Below are positions 11,850 through 23,137 of a DNA stretch of 64,000 nucleotides, piece by piece. Position 1 is the first letter of the stretch, and the number at the start of each line of letters is the position of its first letter. The stretch comes from Candidatus Ozemibacter sibiricus (lineage in GTDB: Bacteria; Muiribacteriota; Ozemobacteria; Ozemobacterales; Ozemobacteraceae), in assembly GCA_003327425.1 (NCBI GenBank), contig QOQW01000024.1:1-64000 (forward strand). The letters run 5' to 3'. The notes beneath the pieces are model-generated. The model saw only the letters and a program-made list of their open reading frames with translations. It was not told the origin of the DNA and did not search any database. A program made the position numbers and the translations under genes.

Positions 11850-13469
11850 TCAGAGTTCGGGTGGTGGGGGAAGGACCCAGTCGACGATGGGCAGAGCGAC
11901 GTAGAAGAAGAAGATCAGCGCCCCGATGACCAGGCAGACGAACAGCCAGAGCGGGATCGGTTGGTCCAGGCCGACTTCGACCGGGAACAGGAGGAGTCGA
12001 TCGAGGGGAGACAGGCGTTTCAGCCAATCGGGGGCCGCCGGGCCAGCCGCCGGATCGTCGGTCTGAGCGGCCGGTTTCGCGGCGGCACGAGTCGCTTGGC
12101 GAACCTGGGGAACGGTCTTCTCGAGCTTTTCCAGAAGCTCTTTGCCTTCGGGCAGCGGACAGGCCTGCAACGCATACCGGGCCGCGTCGCGTTCCCAGAC
12201 CTGGCTGGAGACGGCCATCTTCTTGACCACCTGGAGCACGGTGGCGGGATGAGTCGCCCACAGGCAGGAGGCCGCCGTGGATTTGATGCGGGCGGCGGGG
12301 TGGTCGAGAAAATGGGTCACTCGCTCCAGATCGCTGCGTCCTCCGGCCAGGCTGAGGCATTCGAGCGTATTGGAGATGATCCGTTCGTCTTCGTGGTCCA
12401 GGAACGGTTCAACTGCGCTCAGGACGCCGGGACCGTGGTGATGACCGAGCACTTTGATCAGCTTCGACAGCACGAAGGGATCGGTTTCGATGACGAGCAG
12501 CTCTTTCAGCGGGCCCACCCAGGCCTTGCGTCGGGGGCGGGCTTCCATCTTGCCGAGGACGTCCAGGCGTTCCTTGGCTTCGAGGGTCGGGAACCAGCGG
12601 ACGAACGGTTCAGGTTGACGGCGTTCGAGCGCGGCCTCCCAGGGTTCGAGGGGGGCGTCGGGCAGTGCGGGCTCGGGTGCAGGGGCACCCTCCGGGGCAG
12701 GCGCTGGGGCGGCGGCAGGGGTGGAGGTGGGGGCGGGCGCGGGTTTCGGTGGCGGCGCGGCGGCGGGTTCCGCCATCGGGGAAACCGGCCCTGGAGGTGG
12801 AGCGGCGGCGGGAGCAGCGGGCGCTGGAGGGACAGGGGAGGCGGGCGCGGGGCGCGCGGCGGGCGTCGCGGGGGCGGGGGCCGTGACAGGCGCGGCAGGC
12901 TTGGCTGGAGCAGGTGTGGGAGGAGCCTTGGCAACGGGGGGAGGGGAAGCGGGAGCAGCCGCCGGTGGCCCCTTGAGCGCGCCAGGGGCGGGCGCGGCGG
13001 CGCCCGACCCGGTCTGGTCGGGGCTGCCAGGTTTGGGAATGCCCGACCGGGGCAGGAGAGAGACGGGGAGGCCGGCGGGCGCGGCTTCCGCTGGGCCAGG
13101 CCGGGCCGGGCTCTTGGCCGGCGAAGCCTTGGCGGGCGGGGCGGCTGGGGTGGGCGTGGCCTTCGCCGCCGCCCCCGGGGCAGCTGGAGGCGTCGCGGGT
13201 GTCGGTGCTCCGAGACCGGTGGTGCTGAACACGAGGCGAGGCGTAGCAGGGACCAACGCCGGATCGGGCCGGATGCCCAACAGGGCCAGGCGGTCGAGAC
13301 TCTTGCGGGCCAGGGTGCGGACGCGGGGATCGGGGTCGGCCAGGGCCCTGGCCAGAAGATCGGCCCCTTCCTGCGTTTCCACCTTGGCCAGCAGGTAACA
13401 GGCTTCCTGCCGCTCGTTCGGATCGTTGCTCCGCAGTTTTTCCGCGAGGTCTTCCAGTTCCAGGAACAT
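11850..13469 (-). CDS. Tail-anchored HEAT-repeat protein with Pro/Ala-rich linker
   Basis: 539 aa from ATG 13469 (MFLELEDLAEKL). A short HEAT pair at about 5-65 (NERQEACYLLAKV, DPDPRVRTLARKSL) is followed by a very Pro/Ala-rich linker from about 85 to 265. A second block of HEAT-like helices spans about 270-480 (DPFVLSKLIKVLGHH, DERIISNTLECLSLAGG, AARIKSTAASCLWA). A single C-terminal membrane helix (LWLFVCLVIGALIFFFYVALP) ends near 530. No signal peptide, so the bulk is cytoplasmic and tail-anchored. It resembles the HEAT part of the first cyclase in the operon without its catalytic domain. Probable scaffold or regulator of the cyclases (inference). Confidence 0.75.
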   Translation of the reverse strand: MFLELEDLAEKLRSNDPNERQEACYLLAKVETQEGADLLARALADPDPRVRTLARKSLDRLALLGIRPDPALVPATPRLVFSTTGLGAPTPATPPAAPGAAAKATPTPAAPPAKASPAKSPARPGPAEAAPAGLPVSLLPRSGIPKPGSPDQTGSGAAAPAPGALKGPPAAAPASPPPVAKAPPTPAPAKPAAPVTAPAPATPAARPAPASPVPPAPAAPAAAPPPGPVSPMAEPAAAPPPKPAPAPTSTPAAAPAPAPEGAPAPEPALPDAPLEPWEAALERRQPEPFVRWFPTLEAKERLDVLGKMEARPRRKAWVGPLKELLVIETDPFVLSKLIKVLGHHHGPGVLSAVEPFLDHEDERIISNTLECLSLAGGRSDLERVTHFLDHPAARIKSTAASCLWATHPATVLQVVKKMAVSSQVWERDAARYALQACPLPEGKELLEKLEKTVPQVRQATRAAAKPAAQTDDPAAGPAAPDWLKRLSPLDRLLLFPVEVGLDQPIPLWLFVCLVIGALIFFFYVALPIVDWVLPPPPEL

Positions 13470-13539
13470 GAACCACCATCCCCTTGGCGATGCGCGGTTC
13501 CAAGATACCAGAATTCCGAAGGCCAAGGGAAGGGAGAAC

Positions 13540-16452
13540 TCAGCGAAGGACCAGTTCCCAGCCGCCGAGAGCGGGTTGTTCGATGAAGGGGACCTCGGCG
13601 CCGGCAACCTCGACGGTGGCGAGATCGACCAGGATGCCCGAGCCGCCCGTCAGTTTGGTCGCGCTTTCCAGGGTGGTGGCTCGGTCGACGGTCTCGCCCA
13701 GGATGGTCTGGGCCAACCGGCCGGTCTGGGAGCCGATCACCCCCGACCAGGTGGGGCCGGTGGCGATGCCGATCCCGGTGGCGATCTGGAACAGTCCGCG
13801 GGCCTGGCGATCCTGGTTGAGGGTGGCCAGGGCCCCTCGCATGGCGCGGGCGGCGGCGAGGGCCCGGGCCGCGGTGGTGGCGGGACCCGGGCGCTCGGGT
13901 TGGGCGGGGAAGTGGGCCAGGATGGCATCGCCGATGAAGGAGACGATGACGCCCTGCTGATCGGTGATGCAGGTCTCCATCACCGTGAAGTAGTCGTTGA
14001 GGAGGTCGACGATGGCTTCGGGAGGATGAGCCTCGGTCAGTGAGGTGAAGCCGCGGATGTCGGAGACCAGCACGGTGGTCTGGATCTGGGTGCCGCCCCG
14101 GCGCACCGCGGCCTCTTCCTCGCCGGCGATGGCCGACAGGGTATCTTCCGAGACGAATCGGCTGAGGCGCTGTCGCTCGGTCAGCCGTTCGGCCATCAGG
14201 TTGAAGACGCCGGCCAGGGTTGTGAATTCATCGCGCAACGGCAGCGTCAACCGCCAGGCGAAATCGCCGCCGGCGGCGCGGCGGGTGGCCGCCAGGAAGG
14301 CGCCCAGCGGCCGGATGAGGAAGAAGCTGGTGGCGGCGACCAGGCCCGCCAGGAGCAGGCCGAGGGTGCCGGTGACCATGCCCAGCAGTCGCCACCGCTC
14401 CAAGGGACGATCGATCGTGTCCTGGGCGATGCCCACCGCGATGTACCGGTCGGCCTGGCACGGGCGTGACACCGCCAGGCGGATGCGTTCATGGTTGAGG
14501 GAGGTGCGCAGCACCTTGCCCACCAGATCGGAGCGGGTGGCCTCGGCCAGCGGTTTGAATTCATACCAGAGGAAGCGGTCCTCGGGGTGGCAATGGGGAA
14601 TCGGCTGAATTCCCGAAATCATCAGGTCGCGATACCGATACAACGCGATGTCGGTATGAAAGCCCGCCGGCGTGCGCCGAACCATCAGCGTGCGTTGGCG
14701 GAGCGGGTCTTCCAGCCGTCGTTCGACGAAGCTGACCCCGCCCAGGGTCACCCCCAGGGCGATGGGTGGGGCCGGGTCGGGGTGTCGGCGCAGGAAGAAC
14801 ACGAGCATGGCTTGTTCGGCATTGCCGAAGGGGCTGCGTTGGAGGCGGCCTTCATTGGCCATGACCCGTCCCAGGGTACTGAGGTCCAGGAGCTGTTCGG
14901 CCAGGGAGCGCCAGAGCAGGTCGGCGGGCGAGCCGGCGGTCTCGGTCGGGCTGCCGTTTTCCTGGGCTTCCCGCAGCGTGTGGAAGGCGAATCCTTTGAA
15001 GAAGTTGAGCAGGTCGTTCTGCTGCTGCGGCTGGCCTTCGAGCAGGGTGTGAACGATGCGGTGCCGATCGAAGAGAAAGGCGAAATCGATGGTCGTGGAG
15101 GCTGCCACCTGCGTCAGCTGCTGGCGGGCTTCCTGATCGGCCGGATCCAGGAGGCGCCGGAAGATCTGGCGCAGGCCTGACAGGCGGCGATCTTCGAGGT
15201 CGCGCGCGTAGGCGATCCGCTGATCGACCAGCTCGAGCTGCTGGTCGAGGAACTCGACGGTTTCGCCGACCAGGCCCTGGGCGCGGATGTCGAGCCAGAC
15301 CTGGGCCATCAGCACGACCCCGACCAGCCAGGGCGTCGCGCAAAGTGCCAATCCCCCGGCCAGATTGGCCCGCAGCCCTCCGGGGCAGGGGCCGCCCAGC
15401 CAGATGCCGCGGAACAGGAGCAGGGTGATCAGACCCGCAGCCAAGGCGAAACCGGTCTGCAGGTGGGGCTGCCAGGCCCGCCGCGGCGAGCGCCACCACG
15501 AGGGCGAGGCTTCCGTGACCAGGACCGGCCGGAAGCCGGCCGCGAAGCGGGCGGCCTGATCCCGCTCCAGCAGACGGCGGAAATCGGTCTCGGCCAACGG
15601 TTCGGCATAGGCCAGGCGGTCGGGGCCCTCCTCGAAGCGGGGGAGCGTCGACGGCGGCATCCAGACCAGGCGGCGGCGGAAGCCGGGCGCGGCTCGCGCC
15701 ATGGCGTCCTGCGCCATGCGCGCTGCGTTGAGATCACGATGGTGGAAGACCACCACAAAGGCTCCCTGCCGCGGTTGATCGGCGTCGGGGCGCACCGGGC
15801 GGCCATGGCGGTAGGCCCAATAGGCGATCCCGTGCTCGTGATGCTGCGAAATGAAGTCGCCGGTCTGGTGCGCCATTCCATCGATCAAGGCATCCGGCCC
15901 GAACAAGGCCATGCTTTCCCGTCGCAAGCGGTGTTTCAGGTCCCAGTCGGGCGTGCCGCGCTTGCGGATCGGCTGGAAATCGCGGAAAAAGGCGGTCAGC
16001 AGACGCTCGAAACGTCGCCGGCCGCGGTCGGGTTCGGGTACTAGCGTCTCGGTGGGCGCGAGCCAGACATGGCAGGGCCGGCCGGCCGGGCCGACCAGCC
16101 CTACGGCGGCGGGCAGGGCCCCGGTTTCCTGGCGCAACGCGGCGACCAGCCGGCGCAGGCAGGCCCGGGTGAAGCTGGCCGGTTCCCGACCGAGAAGGAC
16201 AGGGGTGGCGAAGTCCGTGAAGCCGAACCGTTCGGCCACCCGGTCGATGCCGTGTTGCAGGAAGTCGTTGCCGCGCAGATCGGTGCGAAAATGGTCGGAC
16301 TCCGTCTGCAGCAGGTTGCGCACCCCGCGCCGCAAGGCGGCTTCTTCGCGTTGCAGGGTGGCCTCCCACCCGATGGTGAACAGCAGCCAGGGCACCGGGA
16401 CGAACAAGACCCAGAGCAGCGCGCCTTCCCAGGTTTGGAGGAAACGCTTCAT
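13540..16452 (-). CDS. Membrane receptor class III cyclase, C1-like (metal half only)
   Basis: 970 aa from ATG 16452, overlapping the TGA of the next cyclase upstream (ATGA). Layout: TM near 9-29, extracytoplasmic domain to about 335, two TMs (about 340-400), second extracytoplasmic domain to about 685, TM 689-713, HAMP about 714-766, cyclase domain about 790-960. Both metal-binding aspartates are present: Asp798 in SDIRGFTSL and Asp842 in FIGDAILAHF. The residues that select the base and stabilise the transition state are gone: the Lys position is Ser838, the Asp/Thr position is Ala914, Asn is Asp923 and Arg is Thr927 (GETVDRATTLE). Alone it should not make cyclic nucleotide. It complements the neighbouring cyclase exactly. 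Confidence 0.85.
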   Translation of the reverse strand: MKRFLQTWEGALLWVLFVPVPWLLFTIGWEATLQREEAALRRGVRNLLQTESDHFRTDLRGNDFLQHGIDRVAERFGFTDFATPVLLGREPASFTRACLRRLVAALRQETGALPAAVGLVGPAGRPCHVWLAPTETLVPEPDRGRRRFERLLTAFFRDFQPIRKRGTPDWDLKHRLRRESMALFGPDALIDGMAHQTGDFISQHHEHGIAYWAYRHGRPVRPDADQPRQGAFVVVFHHRDLNAARMAQDAMARAAPGFRRRLVWMPPSTLPRFEEGPDRLAYAEPLAETDFRRLLERDQAARFAAGFRPVLVTEASPSWWRSPRRAWQPHLQTGFALAAGLITLLLFRGIWLGGPCPGGLRANLAGGLALCATPWLVGVVLMAQVWLDIRAQGLVGETVEFLDQQLELVDQRIAYARDLEDRRLSGLRQIFRRLLDPADQEARQQLTQVAASTTIDFAFLFDRHRIVHTLLEGQPQQQNDLLNFFKGFAFHTLREAQENGSPTETAGSPADLLWRSLAEQLLDLSTLGRVMANEGRLQRSPFGNAEQAMLVFFLRRHPDPAPPIALGVTLGGVSFVERRLEDPLRQRTLMVRRTPAGFHTDIALYRYRDLMISGIQPIPHCHPEDRFLWYEFKPLAEATRSDLVGKVLRTSLNHERIRLAVSRPCQADRYIAVGIAQDTIDRPLERWRLLGMVTGTLGLLLAGLVAATSFFLIRPLGAFLAATRRAAGGDFAWRLTLPLRDEFTTLAGVFNLMAERLTERQRLSRFVSEDTLSAIAGEEEAAVRRGGTQIQTTVLVSDIRGFTSLTEAHPPEAIVDLLNDYFTVMETCITDQQGVIVSFIGDAILAHFPAQPERPGPATTAARALAAARAMRGALATLNQDRQARGLFQIATGIGIATGPTWSGVIGSQTGRLAQTILGETVDRATTLESATKLTGGSGILVDLATVEVAGAEVPFIEQPALGGWELVLR

Positions 16453-19400
16453 GGCGGGCTCCCCGTCATCGTTGCCTCGGGGTCCCACTCGTCGGGGGAA
16501 AGGGCGAACACCTCCACCGGAGCGGCCTTCCCTTTGATGGCCAGGGTGCCCAGCGGTCGTCCCCGCGCCGTCGGCGCGAAGCTCTCGAGGGTGGCGCGAT
16601 CGACGATGATCGCCTCGGCCTCGGCCCGCTCCCGCAGCGCTTCGAGGCGGGCGGCCAGATTGACCGCGTCCCCGATCACCGTGAAGTCGAGTCGCCGGTG
16701 ACGCGACCCGATGCGGCCCGAGACGACGATGCCGGCGGTCAGGCCGATGCCCGTGCGCCAGGGAGGATGGCCCAGCGCCTTCCGGCGAAGATTCAGGTTG
16801 CGCAGGGCGCGACGCATGCCGCAGGCGGCCCGCCAGGCCCGCCGGGCCGGCGGCGCGGTCGAAGCCTCGGTGCCGGCCCCAGCTTCGTCATGGAACACCG
16901 CCATGATGGCATCCCCGATGTATTTGTCGATGTGCCCGCCCTGGGCGCGAATGGGGGCTTCCATGGCCGAAAGATACTGGCTCAGCCAGGTGAAGACCTG
17001 GCGGCCCTCGAGGGCACGGGCCGCTTCGGTGAAGCCATGAATGTGCGAAAACAGGATGGCCACCCGTCGGCGCTCGCCCCCCGGTTCGAAGGCCGTGCCG
17101 CCGGTGGCGCGGGCGTTGCGCACCGCCTCCGACGAAACGAACCGGGTGAGCAACCGGCCTTCGCGCAAGCCCTTGCACATCTGCCGGAATTCCCCCCCGA
17201 TCTGGGCGAATTCCGCCACCTCCGGCAGGTCGAGGGCCGGGGCATACTCCCCCGTGGCCACCGCCTGGCTGGCCTGGACCAGGCTTTCCATGGGCACTAA
17301 AAAGACCCGCTCGAGGAACCGGCTGACCAGCCCGATCAGCAAGACCAGCAGGGCGATGCCACCTGCCACCAGAAGCCCCGCCGCCCGTTCCAGCAGGGTG
17401 ACGGGCGGCGTCGCCAGGGCGACCGCCATGAAGGGGAAGGCATGGAAGACCCGGGCGGCCGCCACCGCGCCGTCGGCCTGCCGTGGCAGCGGCGACCACG
17501 GATTGGCGGCGGCCTGGCGGGCGATTCTGATCAGATCGGGAGCGTTGCGCGCGTCGGGCGGCCAGCATGGCGTCAGCCGAAGGCGGAATCGGCCTTCCTG
17601 CCCTTCCCGTTCGCACGGAAAGATGGCCAGCCGGTGGCGGCCGTCCGGCCCTGGCAGGCGGTTCGCCACCCCGGCGGTCAGGCGCGTGAGAAAGTAGCGC
17701 TGGCCCAGGGCCGATAACGGAATGGAGGCGAACAGCACGCCGCCCAGCCGTTCCCCCACTGGGGCGTTTGGCTTCCAGAGCAGAAAGGCCATGACCAGGC
17801 CCTGGGAGAAGCCGGTCGCTCGCGCATCGAGAAAGATCGGGTCGCGGCCCAGGTAGGCACCGAGCTCTTCCTCGGTCCACATCGCCCGGCCGATCGACAG
17901 CTGGTCCTGCTCCCACAGCCGGCCTCGCCTCTCGTCGGGGCGGCGGCTCCTGGCGGCGTCGCGGTCCCGCTCCCAGGAGCGGGGATTGTAGGCCATGAAC
18001 AGGCGGGCCGCCAGCAATCGGGCGAACGAGGACATCTTGTCGAGGGTTTCGACGAGCTGGGGCGAAGAACCGGAAGCCGGGCCCTGCGTGAACCATTCCC
18101 GGCCATCATGTCGGAACAGGTGCAGATTCTGGGCCAGGCCGGCTTCGAGCATTCGCCGCAGGTGGTGGTCGACGACGGCCTCGTCCGCTTGCGGCAGCAC
18201 CCGGGCGAGGGCTTCCTTGGCCAGCCACAGTTGCTGGCGCAGCTCGATGCCATGTCCGGTCAGGCCGCTCTCCAACAGTTGCAGTTCCTGTCGGAGGCCT
18301 TCCCGGGTGTCCCGTTCGCCATCGAGGGCCCAGAGCGTCAGCACCGCTCTGGCCACCAATCCGCACGCCAGGGCGGGGGGCACCACGGCGACCGCCATGG
18401 CCAGCGCCAGTTGCCCGCGGATGGAGAGCGGCAGCGCCAGATGCCCGCGCGCCATGGCCATCAGCCACAGGCTGCCCACCACCGCCCACAGGGCCAGGAG
18501 CGCTTCGCCGCGGGCCAGGCTGGTCCGGTGGGGGGAGGCGGCGGCTTCGCGCCATCGCCATACGCCAAGCAGGCGGACCGGGCTGTCGTGGGCGTAGGCG
18601 TGCGCTCCTGGCCGCAGCGGGGGTTGCCAGGAAGGGGGCATGGGGGCCACCGCCCACACTCGCCGGCTCGTATGAACCAGGCGGGGTACGCCATTGCGTC
18701 TGGCCGTGAAGATCACGGCATGCCGGGCTCGCCGGATCCCTTTCAGCAGGAATGTACGGGGCAGATCGGCCTGGCGGTAGAAGGCGACGAATCCGCCCAG
18801 AAACGGGGCATCGTTGCCTGCTCCGCCATACCGTCCGCGGGCGATCAGCCAGATCCGACCCAGGCCGAAGCGGGCGCTGAAAAACCCCGTGGCCATGTTT
18901 TGATCGATGTCCAGGGGAAGATATTCTCCGAACAAATGAGAGCCCATCTTGCGGCCTTGCTCGCGAAACGCCTGCCAGCCGGCGGGTGTCGCCACGCGTC
19001 GGCGCAGGTCTCTGGCGCGGTCGTGGTCGCTCCAGATTCGCCGTTCGAACACCTTGAACCACAGAGCGGCGAGCTGGCGAACCGCGGTCGCGGGGAACGG
19101 CGAAGGCCCCCGGAAGAACCGGGGATTCCCCCAGCTCGCTGAAGTCAGAGCATCGCCGCCGACCACCCAGACCGCCAGGGGGGTGGCTGGAATCTCCCGC
19201 GCCAGAGCCCCTCGAACCCGGGCCAGAACAGCGGGCAGATGGCTGAACTCGGGTGAATCCTGGGGGGGGATCAGCGGTCGTCCCCGGAACCGGGCCCCCC
19301 ATCCCAAGCGGCGAACGGTCCGGTCGGCGGCCTGCTCCAGGGCGCGTTCCGGCGACAAGCCGACCAGATGGCGGCGCAGATCGGCCAGCAGCGTCTGTTC

Positions 19401-19556
19401 CAGCGCGGCGGTGCGTCGGATCTCCTCTTCCTCGACCAGGCGCCTGCCCAGGCCGACCAGCGCCAGCGGGGGCAGCACGAACACCACCAGGCCGACCAGG
19501 ATGATCCAGGTCCAGGAGGGGCGGGCCAGGTCGATGGTCGGAGGCGCGGTTGCCAT
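16449..19556 (-). CDS. Membrane receptor class III cyclase, C2-like (first metal Asp lost)
   Basis: 1035 aa from ATG 19556 (GAGGGG upstream). Same architecture as the downstream gene: TM near 15-37, extracytoplasmic domain, two TMs in the middle, second extracytoplasmic domain, TM about 725-745, HAMP about 750-805, cyclase domain about 830-1025. The substrate half is intact: Lys878 and Asp882 in DKYIGDAIMAVF, Asp957 in LDFTVIGDAVN, Asn966 and Arg970 (VNLAARLE). The first metal Asp is replaced by His838 (FSHIHGFTE, codon at 17043-17045). A B:B homodimer should be impaired. With the overlapping gene's two aspartates, one complete site forms. The paralogy suggests duplication followed by division of labour. 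Confidence 0.85.
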   Translation of the reverse strand: MATAPPTIDLARPSWTWIILVGLVVFVLPPLALVGLGRRLVEEEEIRRTAALEQTLLADLRRHLVGLSPERALEQAADRTVRRLGWGARFRGRPLIPPQDSPEFSHLPAVLARVRGALAREIPATPLAVWVVGGDALTSASWGNPRFFRGPSPFPATAVRQLAALWFKVFERRIWSDHDRARDLRRRVATPAGWQAFREQGRKMGSHLFGEYLPLDIDQNMATGFFSARFGLGRIWLIARGRYGGAGNDAPFLGGFVAFYRQADLPRTFLLKGIRRARHAVIFTARRNGVPRLVHTSRRVWAVAPMPPSWQPPLRPGAHAYAHDSPVRLLGVWRWREAAASPHRTSLARGEALLALWAVVGSLWLMAMARGHLALPLSIRGQLALAMAVAVVPPALACGLVARAVLTLWALDGERDTREGLRQELQLLESGLTGHGIELRQQLWLAKEALARVLPQADEAVVDHHLRRMLEAGLAQNLHLFRHDGREWFTQGPASGSSPQLVETLDKMSSFARLLAARLFMAYNPRSWERDRDAARSRRPDERRGRLWEQDQLSIGRAMWTEEELGAYLGRDPIFLDARATGFSQGLVMAFLLWKPNAPVGERLGGVLFASIPLSALGQRYFLTRLTAGVANRLPGPDGRHRLAIFPCEREGQEGRFRLRLTPCWPPDARNAPDLIRIARQAAANPWSPLPRQADGAVAAARVFHAFPFMAVALATPPVTLLERAAGLLVAGGIALLVLLIGLVSRFLERVFLVPMESLVQASQAVATGEYAPALDLPEVAEFAQIGGEFRQMCKGLREGRLLTRFVSSEAVRNARATGGTAFEPGGERRRVAILFSHIHGFTEAARALEGRQVFTWLSQYLSAMEAPIRAQGGHIDKYIGDAIMAVFHDEAGAGTEASTAPPARRAWRAACGMRRALRNLNLRRKALGHPPWRTGIGLTAGIVVSGRIGSRHRRLDFTVIGDAVNLAARLEALRERAEAEAIIVDRATLESFAPTARGRPLGTLAIKGKAAPVEVFALSPDEWDPEATMTGSPP

Positions 19557-19591: not shown

Positions 19592-22500
19592 CTACCAGTT
19601 GACCTTGTAGGCCCGGATCGGCTTGTCGATGCCCTTCAGCGTGTGCTCACCGAAGGGAATCAGCTCGAACACGCTGGGGTCGATCTGATTGGCGGTCTGT
19701 TCCGAGATGACGATCTCGTTGGCATCGGCGATGCCTTCCAGCCGGCTGGCGATGTTGACCGTATCGCCGAAGACGTCGCCTTCGCGCCGGATGACCGGAC
19801 CGGTGTTGAGGGCGATGCGGAGACCCAGTCGCCGATCCTCGTCGACGGTCAGGTTGTACTCCTTCAGCCGGCGCTGGATCTCCATGGCGGCCAGAACCCC
19901 CTTGGTGGCTTGTTCGAAAGCCACCAGGAAGGCGTCGCCGATCTTCTTGACCGTCTTGCCTTCATGCTTCTCGATGATGGGCACCAGGATCTCGTCATGC
20001 TGTTTGAGCATCGCCATGACTTCCGACAGGGAGGCCTTGGAGCTGAAGGCGGTATAGCCCTTCACGTCGGTGAACATGATCGTCAGCTCTTGCGTGTGGG
20101 TCTGTTGGATGATCTTGTCGTACTTCTGCAGTTCTTCCATGGCACGCTTGCGTTTCTCGAGCACCTGATCGAGGTGATCGTCGGACAGGAGCGGTCGGGC
20201 TTCGCCTTTCTTGCGGATCAGGGTCGGATCGACCTGCCCGCCCACGCTCTCGACCAGATCGACGATGCCTTTCCGATCGATCTCGTTCTCGATCTCGCCC
20301 GCCATCTCAAGCAGCGGGTCGGTGATGATGGGCCCCAGGGCGAGCAGGTAATCGGTGACCGCTCCTTTCAGCCGGAAGTCTTCCGAGAAGAAATACGGGG
20401 CGAGGATCTTGACGGCCCGTTTGATGATCAGGGGATCATCATGGGGGTTCAGGTTGTCCATGAGGGCGAAGGCCACCCGCTTGTCCTTGATCTGCTCGAT
20501 GGCGACGATGCAGCACAGGCGGAACGCCATGGTCGGCGACTGCAGGCCCTGCAAGATCCCTTCGGGGCGACTGCGGTAGATGAGCCCGAGGATCTTGCCG
20601 ACCCGCTCGGTGTCCTCGATGCGGATGACCTCGGACCGGGTCTTCAGCAGCTCGGCCAGGACGGGGCCGAACAGCGGGCGGTCGCTCTGGGCCAGCTCCA
20701 GCATCATGTCGAGCATCAGGTCGGGATCGCAGCTCTTGAGGAACTCCTTGGTGGCATTGACGCTGGCCGGCGTGGAGAAGCGGGCCAGAATCCGGGCGAT
20801 GGCGCAGAGATTGCGCGGATTGCGCTCGACCTCGAGCTGGCGGACGACGGCTTTCAGATCGGCCTCGGGCAGGTCATCCCAGGCCTGGATGGCCTCGGCG
20901 ACGAACAGTCGACATTGATCCTTGGTGTGATTGAGCCCGAGCAGCACGAGGCGGCGCAACGGCGGCTTGCGTACCTTGCCCAGCAACGAGGCCAGCCAGC
21001 GGGCGGCCCGCTCGTCGGGGTGGGAGATCAGATTGAGAATGGTCTCGACCACTTCGCGGGAGCTGATCTCCTTGATGCCCTGGAAGATGCTCTGGATCCG
21101 GTTGTCGTCGTTCGCCTGCAGGAATTTCAGGACGGCCGGGACGGCGTCGGCGTGGTCCATGGCCAGGAGGGCGGCGATGATGTGCGGAATCAGGGCGCCG
21201 TCGGTGCCCAGGTCGAGGATCTCGGTGAGGGCGGCCACCGCGGCCGGTCCCATCCCCAGCAGGACCCGCCGGGACCAGAACTGGACGTCCTCGTTCGGGC
21301 TGTTGAGAACGGTCACGACCGCCGAGACGGCGGCGGCCCCGTACGATTTCAGGCAGTTGGCGGCGGCGTTGCGGATCGGCCAGCTGGGATCTCCCAGCAG
21401 CTGGATCAGCACGCCGATCAACTTCTCGGTGGGGGTGATCTTCTGGAGGACTCCCAGAAGGAAGAGGCGTTCCTGTTTGTTGCCCTCTTCCAGGATGCGG
21501 ATGATCGGGTTGAGCGCGATGCCGCCGATGCTGCCGATGGTACGGATGACCAGGAACCGCAGGTTCTCGTCGGTGGTCTCCAGGTGCTCCAGCAGGAGGT
21601 CGAGGTTGAGGTTCGTCTTTCTGGCCAGGCATTCCGAGGCGAAGTCCGAGACGATGCGGAACGGATCGGTCAGGCATTTGATCAGCAGCCGGCAGGGCTC
21701 GTCGCCCGGCAGGCGGCTCAGGCTCTCTACAGCCAGGATGCGGTATTCCTGGTCTTCGCTGGCGAGGAGCCGGCGCAGGAGGGGAATGGTCCGTTCGCCC
21801 AGCAGCGTGACGATGATGCTGACGATCTGGTGCTTCATCACCGAATCGCCGCGCGGGAACCAGGCCGACAGCCGGTCGAAGATCTTGGGACCGAGGCTGG
21901 TAAGCAGTTCGGCGGCCCGCTTGCGGATGACCCAGGACGGATCGGACAGGCCATTGATCAGGAAATCGACGGCCATCGGGGAATCGGATTCGCCCAGCGC
22001 GGTGATGATCGAATAGCGCATGGCGAAGCTGCCGTTCTGGTACAACTCGCCGAGATCCTTGGCGATCTCGTTGCCGCCGATCTTGACGTAGAGCGCGATG
22101 ATCGAGTGGTTGGGCTCGGTCTCGGCCCTGACTTTGGCGGTCAGTTGTGGCAGGATGGTCTTGCCGAAGGAGAGCAGCCGTTCGAAGACCAGGCGTCGTA
22201 CCGCCCAGTTGGAATCGTTCAGCATCGGCAGCAGAATCTGGGCGTGCGCCGGCGTGGCCGAGATCGACATGGCCCGAACGGCATAGCTGCGGATCTCGGG
22301 GTCAGGGTTGGCCAGGAGTTCGCGAATCTTCTCCTGACCGACCGGGTCATCGAAATGGCCCAGGACATGGGTCAGCCAGTAGCACTCGTCGAGATTCTGG
22401 ATGCTCAGACGCTCGACGACGGCCGGAATGACTTCGGGGCCCCATTCGATCAGGGTTTTGGCCGCTGCTTCCCGTTTGCGCCAGGCCTTGTCCGAGAGGA

Positions 22501-22615
22501 GGCGCAGCAGGGCATCCAAGGCGGGTTGGGTATGTTCGACGAGAAGGGCGGACAGGCCCTGGCGCCAGAGGTTTTCGTCGAAGCTTTGAACCAGTTCGTA
22601 GGGTGATTTTTCCAT
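19592..22615 (-). CDS. HEAT-repeat class III adenylate/guanylate cyclase, soluble
   Basis: 1007 aa from ATG 22615. Residues 1 to about 800 are near-continuous HEAT repeats (KAWRKREAAAKTLIEWG, NWAVRRLVFERLLSFG, PSWPIRNAAANCLKSYG and many more). The cyclase domain is about 840-1000 with all catalytic positions: Asp850 (TDVKGYT), Lys890 and Asp894 (VKKIGDAF), Asn954 and Arg958 (GDTVNIASRLE). Glu stands where many adenylate cyclases have the base-selecting Asp. No membrane segment or signal peptide is seen. It should act as a homodimer producing cAMP or cGMP under control of whatever binds the HEAT solenoid. First gene of the operon; the next cyclase starts 35 nt downstream. Confidence 0.88.
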   Translation of the reverse strand: MEKSPYELVQSFDENLWRQGLSALLVEHTQPALDALLRLLSDKAWRKREAAAKTLIEWGPEVIPAVVERLSIQNLDECYWLTHVLGHFDDPVGQEKIRELLANPDPEIRSYAVRAMSISATPAHAQILLPMLNDSNWAVRRLVFERLLSFGKTILPQLTAKVRAETEPNHSIIALYVKIGGNEIAKDLGELYQNGSFAMRYSIITALGESDSPMAVDFLINGLSDPSWVIRKRAAELLTSLGPKIFDRLSAWFPRGDSVMKHQIVSIIVTLLGERTIPLLRRLLASEDQEYRILAVESLSRLPGDEPCRLLIKCLTDPFRIVSDFASECLARKTNLNLDLLLEHLETTDENLRFLVIRTIGSIGGIALNPIIRILEEGNKQERLFLLGVLQKITPTEKLIGVLIQLLGDPSWPIRNAAANCLKSYGAAAVSAVVTVLNSPNEDVQFWSRRVLLGMGPAAVAALTEILDLGTDGALIPHIIAALLAMDHADAVPAVLKFLQANDDNRIQSIFQGIKEISSREVVETILNLISHPDERAARWLASLLGKVRKPPLRRLVLLGLNHTKDQCRLFVAEAIQAWDDLPEADLKAVVRQLEVERNPRNLCAIARILARFSTPASVNATKEFLKSCDPDLMLDMMLELAQSDRPLFGPVLAELLKTRSEVIRIEDTERVGKILGLIYRSRPEGILQGLQSPTMAFRLCCIVAIEQIKDKRVAFALMDNLNPHDDPLIIKRAVKILAPYFFSEDFRLKGAVTDYLLALGPIITDPLLEMAGEIENEIDRKGIVDLVESVGGQVDPTLIRKKGEARPLLSDDHLDQVLEKRKRAMEELQKYDKIIQQTHTQELTIMFTDVKGYTAFSSKASLSEVMAMLKQHDEILVPIIEKHEGKTVKKIGDAFLVAFEQATKGVLAAMEIQRRLKEYNLTVDEDRRLGLRIALNTGPVIRREGDVFGDTVNIASRLEGIADANEIVISEQTANQIDPSVFELIPFGEHTLKGIDKPIRAYKVNW

Positions 22616-22647
22616 AATCCCGGTGACGAGAGTGGGATCGGGTGCCC

Positions 22648-22677
22648 TTGATCTTACACCAGCCCCTCTCCTATAAT
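22648..22677 (+). promoter_or_regulatory. Predicted sigma70 promoter of the FmdB-like gene
   Basis: TTGATC (22648-22653), an 18-nt spacer and a perfect TATAAT (22672-22677) lie 31 nt before the ATG at 22709. The region also divides this gene from the divergent cyclase operon. Confidence 0.55.
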
Positions 22678-22708
22678 CCAGTGGAAATCTCTGTGAGCTG
22701 GAGGACGT

Positions 22709-23137
22709 ATGCCGATCTACGAATATCGCTGCCAGGGCTGCCAGGCCCGCTTCAGCGTCTTCTGCAAAATCTCCGAGCTGCAAGAGCACCCGCCCTGCGA
22801 AAAATGCCGCTCCACCAAGACTCAGCGTCTGGTTTCCCGCTTCAAGACCGTGCGGTCGGAGGATCAGATTCTCGAATCGATGGCCGATCCCAGCCAGTTG
22901 TCAGGCCTCGATGAGAATGATCCGCGGTCGATCGCTCGCTGGGCCAAGAAAATGGCCAAGGAAATGGGCGAAGATATCGGCGATGAGATCGAAGCCATGG
23001 CCGAGGAGGAGATCGCCAAAGGCGGCTTGGGCGGATCCCCCCGTGGGGAAGGCCCAGCCGACGCCTCGTCCCCCGAAGACGGGGCTGGCTGTTCGGCCGG
23101 AGCGTCGACGTGTCCTCTCCCTTCCAGCGACGAATGA
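22709..23137 (+). CDS. FmdB-family zinc-ribbon protein
   Basis: 142 aa. The N-terminal MPIYEYRCQGCQ with Cys8, Cys11, Cys30 and Cys33 is the FmdB/CxxC zinc-ribbon signature, named after a putative regulator of formamide metabolism. The rest is acidic and helical (WAKKMAKEMGEDIGDEIEAMAEEEIAKGG is the core), with a Ser/Pro/Cys tail. FmdB proteins are widespread and poorly defined functionally. ATG 22709 has GGAGG upstream. It converges on trmL across 178 bp in which I see no clear feature. Confidence 0.8.
   Translation: MPIYEYRCQGCQARFSVFCKISELQEHPPCEKCRSTKTQRLVSRFKTVRSEDQILESMADPSQLSGLDENDPRSIARWAKKMAKEMGEDIGDEIEAMAEEEIAKGGLGGSPRGEGPADASSPEDGAGCSAGASTCPLPSSDE

Follow-up and report, generated by a model that had tools for sequence, protein, structure and literature searches.

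Overlapping receptor cyclases with complementary half-sites in Ozemobacteraceae: predicted bacterial counterparts of C1/C2 adenylyl cyclases

Two overlapping receptor cyclase genes

The window analyzed here, a 64,000-nucleotide stretch forming positions 1 to 64,000 of contig QOQW01000024.1 of Candidatus Ozemibacter sibiricus, carries on its minus strand two adjacent genes for receptor-like class III nucleotidyl cyclases. The upstream gene (16449..19556) encodes a protein of 1035 amino acids, here called U, and the downstream gene (13540..16452) one of 970 amino acids, here called D; the start codon of the latter overlaps the stop codon of the former in an ATGA at 16449..16452. Membership in class III is established for both by a recognizable PF00211 catalytic domain, at 16524..17069 in U (E-value 7.8e-12) and at 13657..14079 in D (7.6e-14), each above the curated cut-off. 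By hydropathy, U and D share a single layout, in which a transmembrane (TM) segment, about 310 amino acids, two successive TM segments, another 310 or so amino acids and a final TM segment are followed by a HAMP-like linker and the cyclase domain, and four hydrophobic segments in this arrangement imply two extracytoplasmic segments per protein. The HAMP match is clear in D (14179..14319; E 7e-8) and weak in U (17178..17312; 0.0011), falling under the Pfam cut-off in U alone, yet in alignment A1 every one of the 10 U-type paralogues matches HAMP. The extracytoplasmic segments gave no Pfam family beyond weak single matches, and comparison of these parts with the PDB returned no match. Structures predicted for U and D, from alignments of two sequences each, had mean pLDDT values of 30 and 32.

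A third cyclase is encoded close by. Its gene (19592-22789, minus strand) ends 35 nucleotides upstream of U and encodes a HEAT-repeat protein whose class III cyclase domain is complete; the order HEAT-cyclase, U, D is preserved at two other loci (L051 and L064), so the three neighboring cyclase genes may share one operon. The gene after D, on the same strand (11850-13607), encodes a HEAT-like protein that is rich in proline and has hydrophobic segments at its C terminus.

Residue-by-residue numbering places H838, K878, D882, D957, T959, N966 and R970 in the active site of U, and D798, S838, D842, A914, T916, D923 and T927 in that of D. Both metal-binding aspartates are present in D, as Asp798 (codon 14059..14061, minus strand) and Asp842 (13927..13929), and its lysine, asparagine and arginine are lost (S838, D923 and T927). 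In U the first metal aspartate is lost, with His838 in its place (17043..17045), and the base-specifying Lys878 (16923..16925), Thr959 at the second base-specifying position (16680..16682) and the ribose/transition-state residues Asn966 to Arg970 (16647..16661) are all present. This is the division that defines C1 and C2 half-sites, with the metal Asp pair in one half and the Lys, Thr/Asp, Asn and Arg in the other. Because Thr stands at the base-specifying position in both U and D, the pair falls in class IIIb, where Lys is kept and Thr or Ser replaces the base-specifying Asp; the CyaC and CyaB reference rows are alike in this respect.

The locus had been described before in a sequence-only reading, and most of that description holds: the two open frames and their ATGA overlap are real, the residue identities and numbers are correct on recount, and two extracytoplasmic domains plus a HAMP in each protein are borne out by hydropathy and, for the weak HAMP of U, by its paralogues. 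It erred in treating Asp957 of U and Ala914 of D as the required Asp position. The substrate-specifying position of class III cyclases lies seven residues before the Asn, as T1139 does before N1146 in CyaC; in U it is T959 and in D it is T916, which rules out Asp957 as the base-specifying residue.

Complementary pairs in related genomes

For comparison with other proteins, D-like (C1-like) partners are termed A-type and U-like (C2-like) partners B-type. A Pfam search of the 5.7 Mb window genome (G000) found 53 PF00211 domains, and the genome holds 17 adjacent complementary pairs, ten of them encoded by separate genes and seven fused in a single open frame of 2151-2424 amino acids. Sixteen pairs were read from Pfam-only matches, a search blind to the pattern, and for the 17th, on contig C2, the B half came to light only with the family profile; rows C45, C42, C55:124664 and C7:399110 were left out of the residue table. 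Searches with B-type (A1) and A-type (A2) profiles within the window's own phylum gave a first set of 104 pairs and a full set of 130 from about two dozen genomes, divided among the family of the window (125), a second family (f3; four) and a third (f6; one). Outside the window genome most pairs came from searches with profiles that were themselves made from pairs. Pairing is therefore in part selected for; this does not apply to the complementary residues or to the completeness of the lone homologues described below. The nearest named relative, a Candidatus Ozemobacteraceae metagenome-assembled genome, carries the same pair with identical substitutions at 69-72% identity.

As to the overall number of class III cyclase domains, the 53 of the window genome and the 77 of a second genome of the same genus (G001) may be set beside the 37 listed for Bradyrhizobium japonicum at the top of the adenylate cyclase table of a 2005 census (PMC1183210).

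Conservation follows the half-sites closely. Both metal aspartates are present in all 130 A-type domains; Lys, and Thr or Ser at the base position, are present in all 130 B-type domains, and Asn and Arg in 129 of 129 (one domain ends at a contig edge). A complete metal site occurs in the B-type partner of none of the 130 pairs. Four B-type partners have lost the second Asp and all the others the first, whose substitutes (G, S, A, H, Q, T, E and others) are mostly unable to act as a metal ligand in its place. In the 104-pair set, the positions of the live site have an entropy of 0 bits and those of the dead site 1.2-3.6 bits, against about 2.4 for the median column. All six residues occur in only two A-type proteins (L096 and the second A of L107), which could homodimerize. 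The complementary half-sites noted in U and D are thus confirmed, and they are not a chance find: the same division recurs in 17 pairs within the window genome and in 130 overall.

Among lone homologues that share the four-TM layout, 13 of 13 have all six residues. Among the homologues read, we found no lone A- or B-type half: apparent ones end at contig edges, and for A-type matches that at first seemed unpaired the partners were present in the surrounding sequence, apart from two others at contig edges. In this set both halves are therefore always encoded together, adjacent, mostly overlapping, or fused, except where contigs end, and the substitutions seen in U and D, which the sequence-only reading required to be confined to paired genes, were not met without a partner. 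The only domains that recur among members are PF00211 and HAMP, with no H-NOX heme domain. Two other frames may be mentioned here: a lone 786-amino-acid protein (L046, G000:C29:88420), probably a pseudo-cyclase, whose cyclase domain lacks the first metal Asp and has altered Asn and Arg, with no partner nearby, and a short, very divergent cyclase-like frame without Lys and Arg that adjoins a complete cyclase (L048, 5787-6377, plus strand).

The partners are also tied together in gene arrangement and descent. In the first set, 53 of 76 split pairs have a 4-nucleotide overlap, and most of the remainder overlap by 8-11 nucleotides or abut, an arrangement that supports the earlier suggestion that the ATGA may couple synthesis of the two proteins. 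In 39 of the 130 pairs A and B are fused in a single open frame, invariably with A first (39/39), so that the metal half leads, as in the C1-C2 order of mammalian enzymes. Mapped on the tree, the state of fusion requires three changes, and more than one fusion event is therefore likely; an assembly artefact is ruled out by the presence of fusions in many genomes and contigs. Tandem arrays of fused A-B genes were seen in two genomes, with six genes in G015 (L163 and L164; G015:C314) and three in G032 (L165; G032:C150). The distances among partner domains mirror each other, with r of 0.79 against 0.10 for the best of 1000 permutations, and the correlation persists within the window genome alone (r 0.68, a value reached by 0 of 5000 permutations).

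To get at the lineage of the two types, we built trees of the window-genome domains without the active-site columns. The A-type domains form one clade (98/97), and the B-type domains a clade of 14 (100/98) and another of three, the domain from the window among them; one origin of all B-type domains is neither shown nor rejected (AU p 0.387). When the trees are widened, some deep members shift and support drops, so that one origin of the main family is likely, not proven. The f3 pairs fall within or near the same A and B groups. The one f6 pair (L157, G022:C238) consists of two adjacent cyclases of 720-740 amino acids with the complementary split DKDSSR and KKDTNR (in the order D1, K, D2, T, N, R), and its A and B domains are mutual sisters (100/96) among complete cyclases, apparently an independent origin of the same division. 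In profile comparisons the sensor regions of A-type, B-type and lone proteins can be aligned over their full length at 99.5-99.9% probability, a value that the composition bias of membrane proteins may inflate. The pair type probably goes back to a four-TM HAMP cyclase duplicated in tandem, whose copies lost complementary half-sites; the pairs would then have multiplied as units, and in some lineages the two genes would have fused into one C1-C2 chain.

A predicted heterodimeric receptor and its alternatives

We consider it very probable that the receptor made by U and D is an obligate heterodimer, a membrane-spanning adenylyl cyclase in which one site is live and the other dead, and that this type arose by tandem duplication and complementary loss and was later fused in some lineages. 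The C1/C2-like heterodimer put forward in the earlier reading, with one complete and one dead site, finds strong support at the level of sequence, from which we infer dimerization, activity, product and the direction of signaling. D, as the C1-like partner, would give both metal-binding Asp, and U, as the C2-like partner, the Lys and Thr for the base and the Asn and Arg for the transition state, so that a U-D dimer would have one live site and a pseudo-symmetric second site that is dead. Signals received in up to four extracytoplasmic segments would pass through the HAMP linkers and close the catalytic dimer, and the cAMP formed could then be read by cNMP-binding proteins of the same cell. The window genome encodes 14 cNMP-binding domains, and candidate readers of cAMP therefore exist.

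How many inputs such a receptor integrates is a separate matter, because catalytic halves that depend on each other need not depend on both ligands. Such a receptor might be triggered by either ligand, require both, or act through one sensor only, an AND gate being one of several options. That the heterodimer is real and one of its sensors silent, leaving a one-input receptor whose partners became mutually dependent by neutral complementary loss, is a serious possibility to which we give somewhat less than even weight: complementary loss after duplication can be fixed without any gain, and the sequences bear no sign of ligand binding by both sensors, but both sensor regions are full length in the pairs read.

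The cAMP product is predicted from the Lys/Thr motif. Synthesis of cGMP, cCMP or cUMP instead, each within reach of class III enzymes, appears unlikely given that Lys and Thr occupy both base-specifying positions, the CyaC-like motif of class IIIb adenylyl cyclases, in 104 of the 104 B-type domains of the first set, and that adenylyl cyclases are the nearest solved structures.

The incompleteness of each half on its own would also be expected if the partners were degenerate pseudo-cyclases, acting as non-catalytic receptors or regulators of complete cyclases such as the HEAT-repeat cyclase next door, which has a complete site just upstream, in a neighborhood conserved in a relative. We think this improbable, as exactly one composite site is absolutely conserved in about two dozen genomes while the same positions of the other site have decayed, and as A and B are fused in places and co-diversify. 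Equally improbable is that each half works weakly as a homodimer, with other residues standing in for the missing ones, and that the pair is no more than two co-expressed paralogous receptors, a reading for which the two A-type proteins with all six residues could be cited but which is disfavored by the lack of any conserved Lys, Asn or Arg in A-type proteins to replace those lost (an escape that the sequence-only reading had itself foreseen), by the replacement of the first Asp in B-type proteins mostly with residues unfit as metal ligands, and by the failure to find lone halves.

Relation to eukaryotic C1/C2 cyclases

The heterodimeric reading of U and D is matched by the way the two types align with cyclases of known structure. 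Among solved structures, the best matches of the A profile are the C1 domains of soluble adenylyl cyclase (sAC; 41-173), AC5, AC8 and AC9 and the alpha subunit of soluble guanylyl cyclase (sGC), and those of the B profile are the C2 domains of sAC (265-417), type II AC, AC5, AC8 and AC9 and the beta subunit of sGC. Like the mammalian transmembrane enzymes (ADCY1-9), the Ozemobacteraceae pairs have two homologous membrane halves, of which the first carries the metal Asp in its catalytic domain and the second the residues for base and transition state; they also share a single live site alongside a dead one and, in the fused proteins, the C1-C2 order. The mammalian enzymes differ in having two six-TM blocks, regulation by G proteins and Asp at the base position, whereas each half of the bacterial pairs has four hydrophobic segments, two large extracytoplasmic segments and a HAMP, with Thr at the base position and often with two genes in place of one.

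Mammalian sAC (ADCY10) and bacterial sAC-like proteins share the class IIIb Lys/Thr motif, a single-chain C1-C2 and one live site; unlike U and D, ADCY10 is soluble, with AAA and TPR regions after C1-C2 and without TM segments, sensors or HAMP. In another family of the same phylum we found a 1550-amino-acid protein of C1-C2-AAA-TPR layout (L158, G023:C52, 1990-6642, minus strand), which matches ADCY10 across both halves (E 9e-41), so that the receptors described here are not the only single-chain C1-C2 cyclases in bacteria; a second protein (L159) seems to be a more divergent relative of it. Conservation of the sAC domain structure in bacteria is reportedly the topic of a 2004 paper by Kobayashi et al. 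(cited in PMC3918592).

In sGC the arrangement is again that of two genes, with the metal Asp on alpha and the base and transition-state residues on beta, in a eukaryotic enzyme that differs in its heme NO sensor and its cGMP product and is not a membrane receptor; H-NOX, as noted, is absent from the bacterial pairs. Homodimers of sGC are inactive because key residues are divided between the subunits (PMC3591389), and in a Plasmodium enzyme the motifs are distributed across two domains of one chain (PMC3383692). The bacterial class III receptor cyclases Rv1625c, CyaC and CyaB have the same catalytic fold and residues, and the lone four-TM homologues are of this type, but they differ from the pairs in being symmetric, with two equivalent sites and each subunit complete. 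According to a review by a leading figure in the field, class III cyclases of bacteria homodimerize, with monomers contributing equally to two equal sites, and duplication, divergence and fusion into C1/C2 took place in early eukaryotes (PMC9552081). Literature searches, with subscription papers mostly outside their reach, found no published report on these Ozemobacteraceae cyclases.

As judged from their sequences, the Ozemobacteraceae set is a bacterial counterpart of the eukaryotic C1/C2 cyclases. It seems to us fairly probable that this bacterial lineage holds dozens of parallel, mutually specific split-site two-receptor cyclases, and that it has kept every stage of the route supposed for animal adenylyl cyclase, from lone homodimer through split pair to single-chain C1-C2, with at least one other family having arrived independently at the same division. 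Bacteria too have the division of labor known from animal adenylyl cyclases: it occurs both in split pairs and in fused proteins, apparently arose separately at least twice, and is found beside complete lone relatives. Since all of these occur side by side, the order and the consequences of each step are accessible to experiment, and the pairs would offer natural, tightly paired two-receptor cAMP switches.
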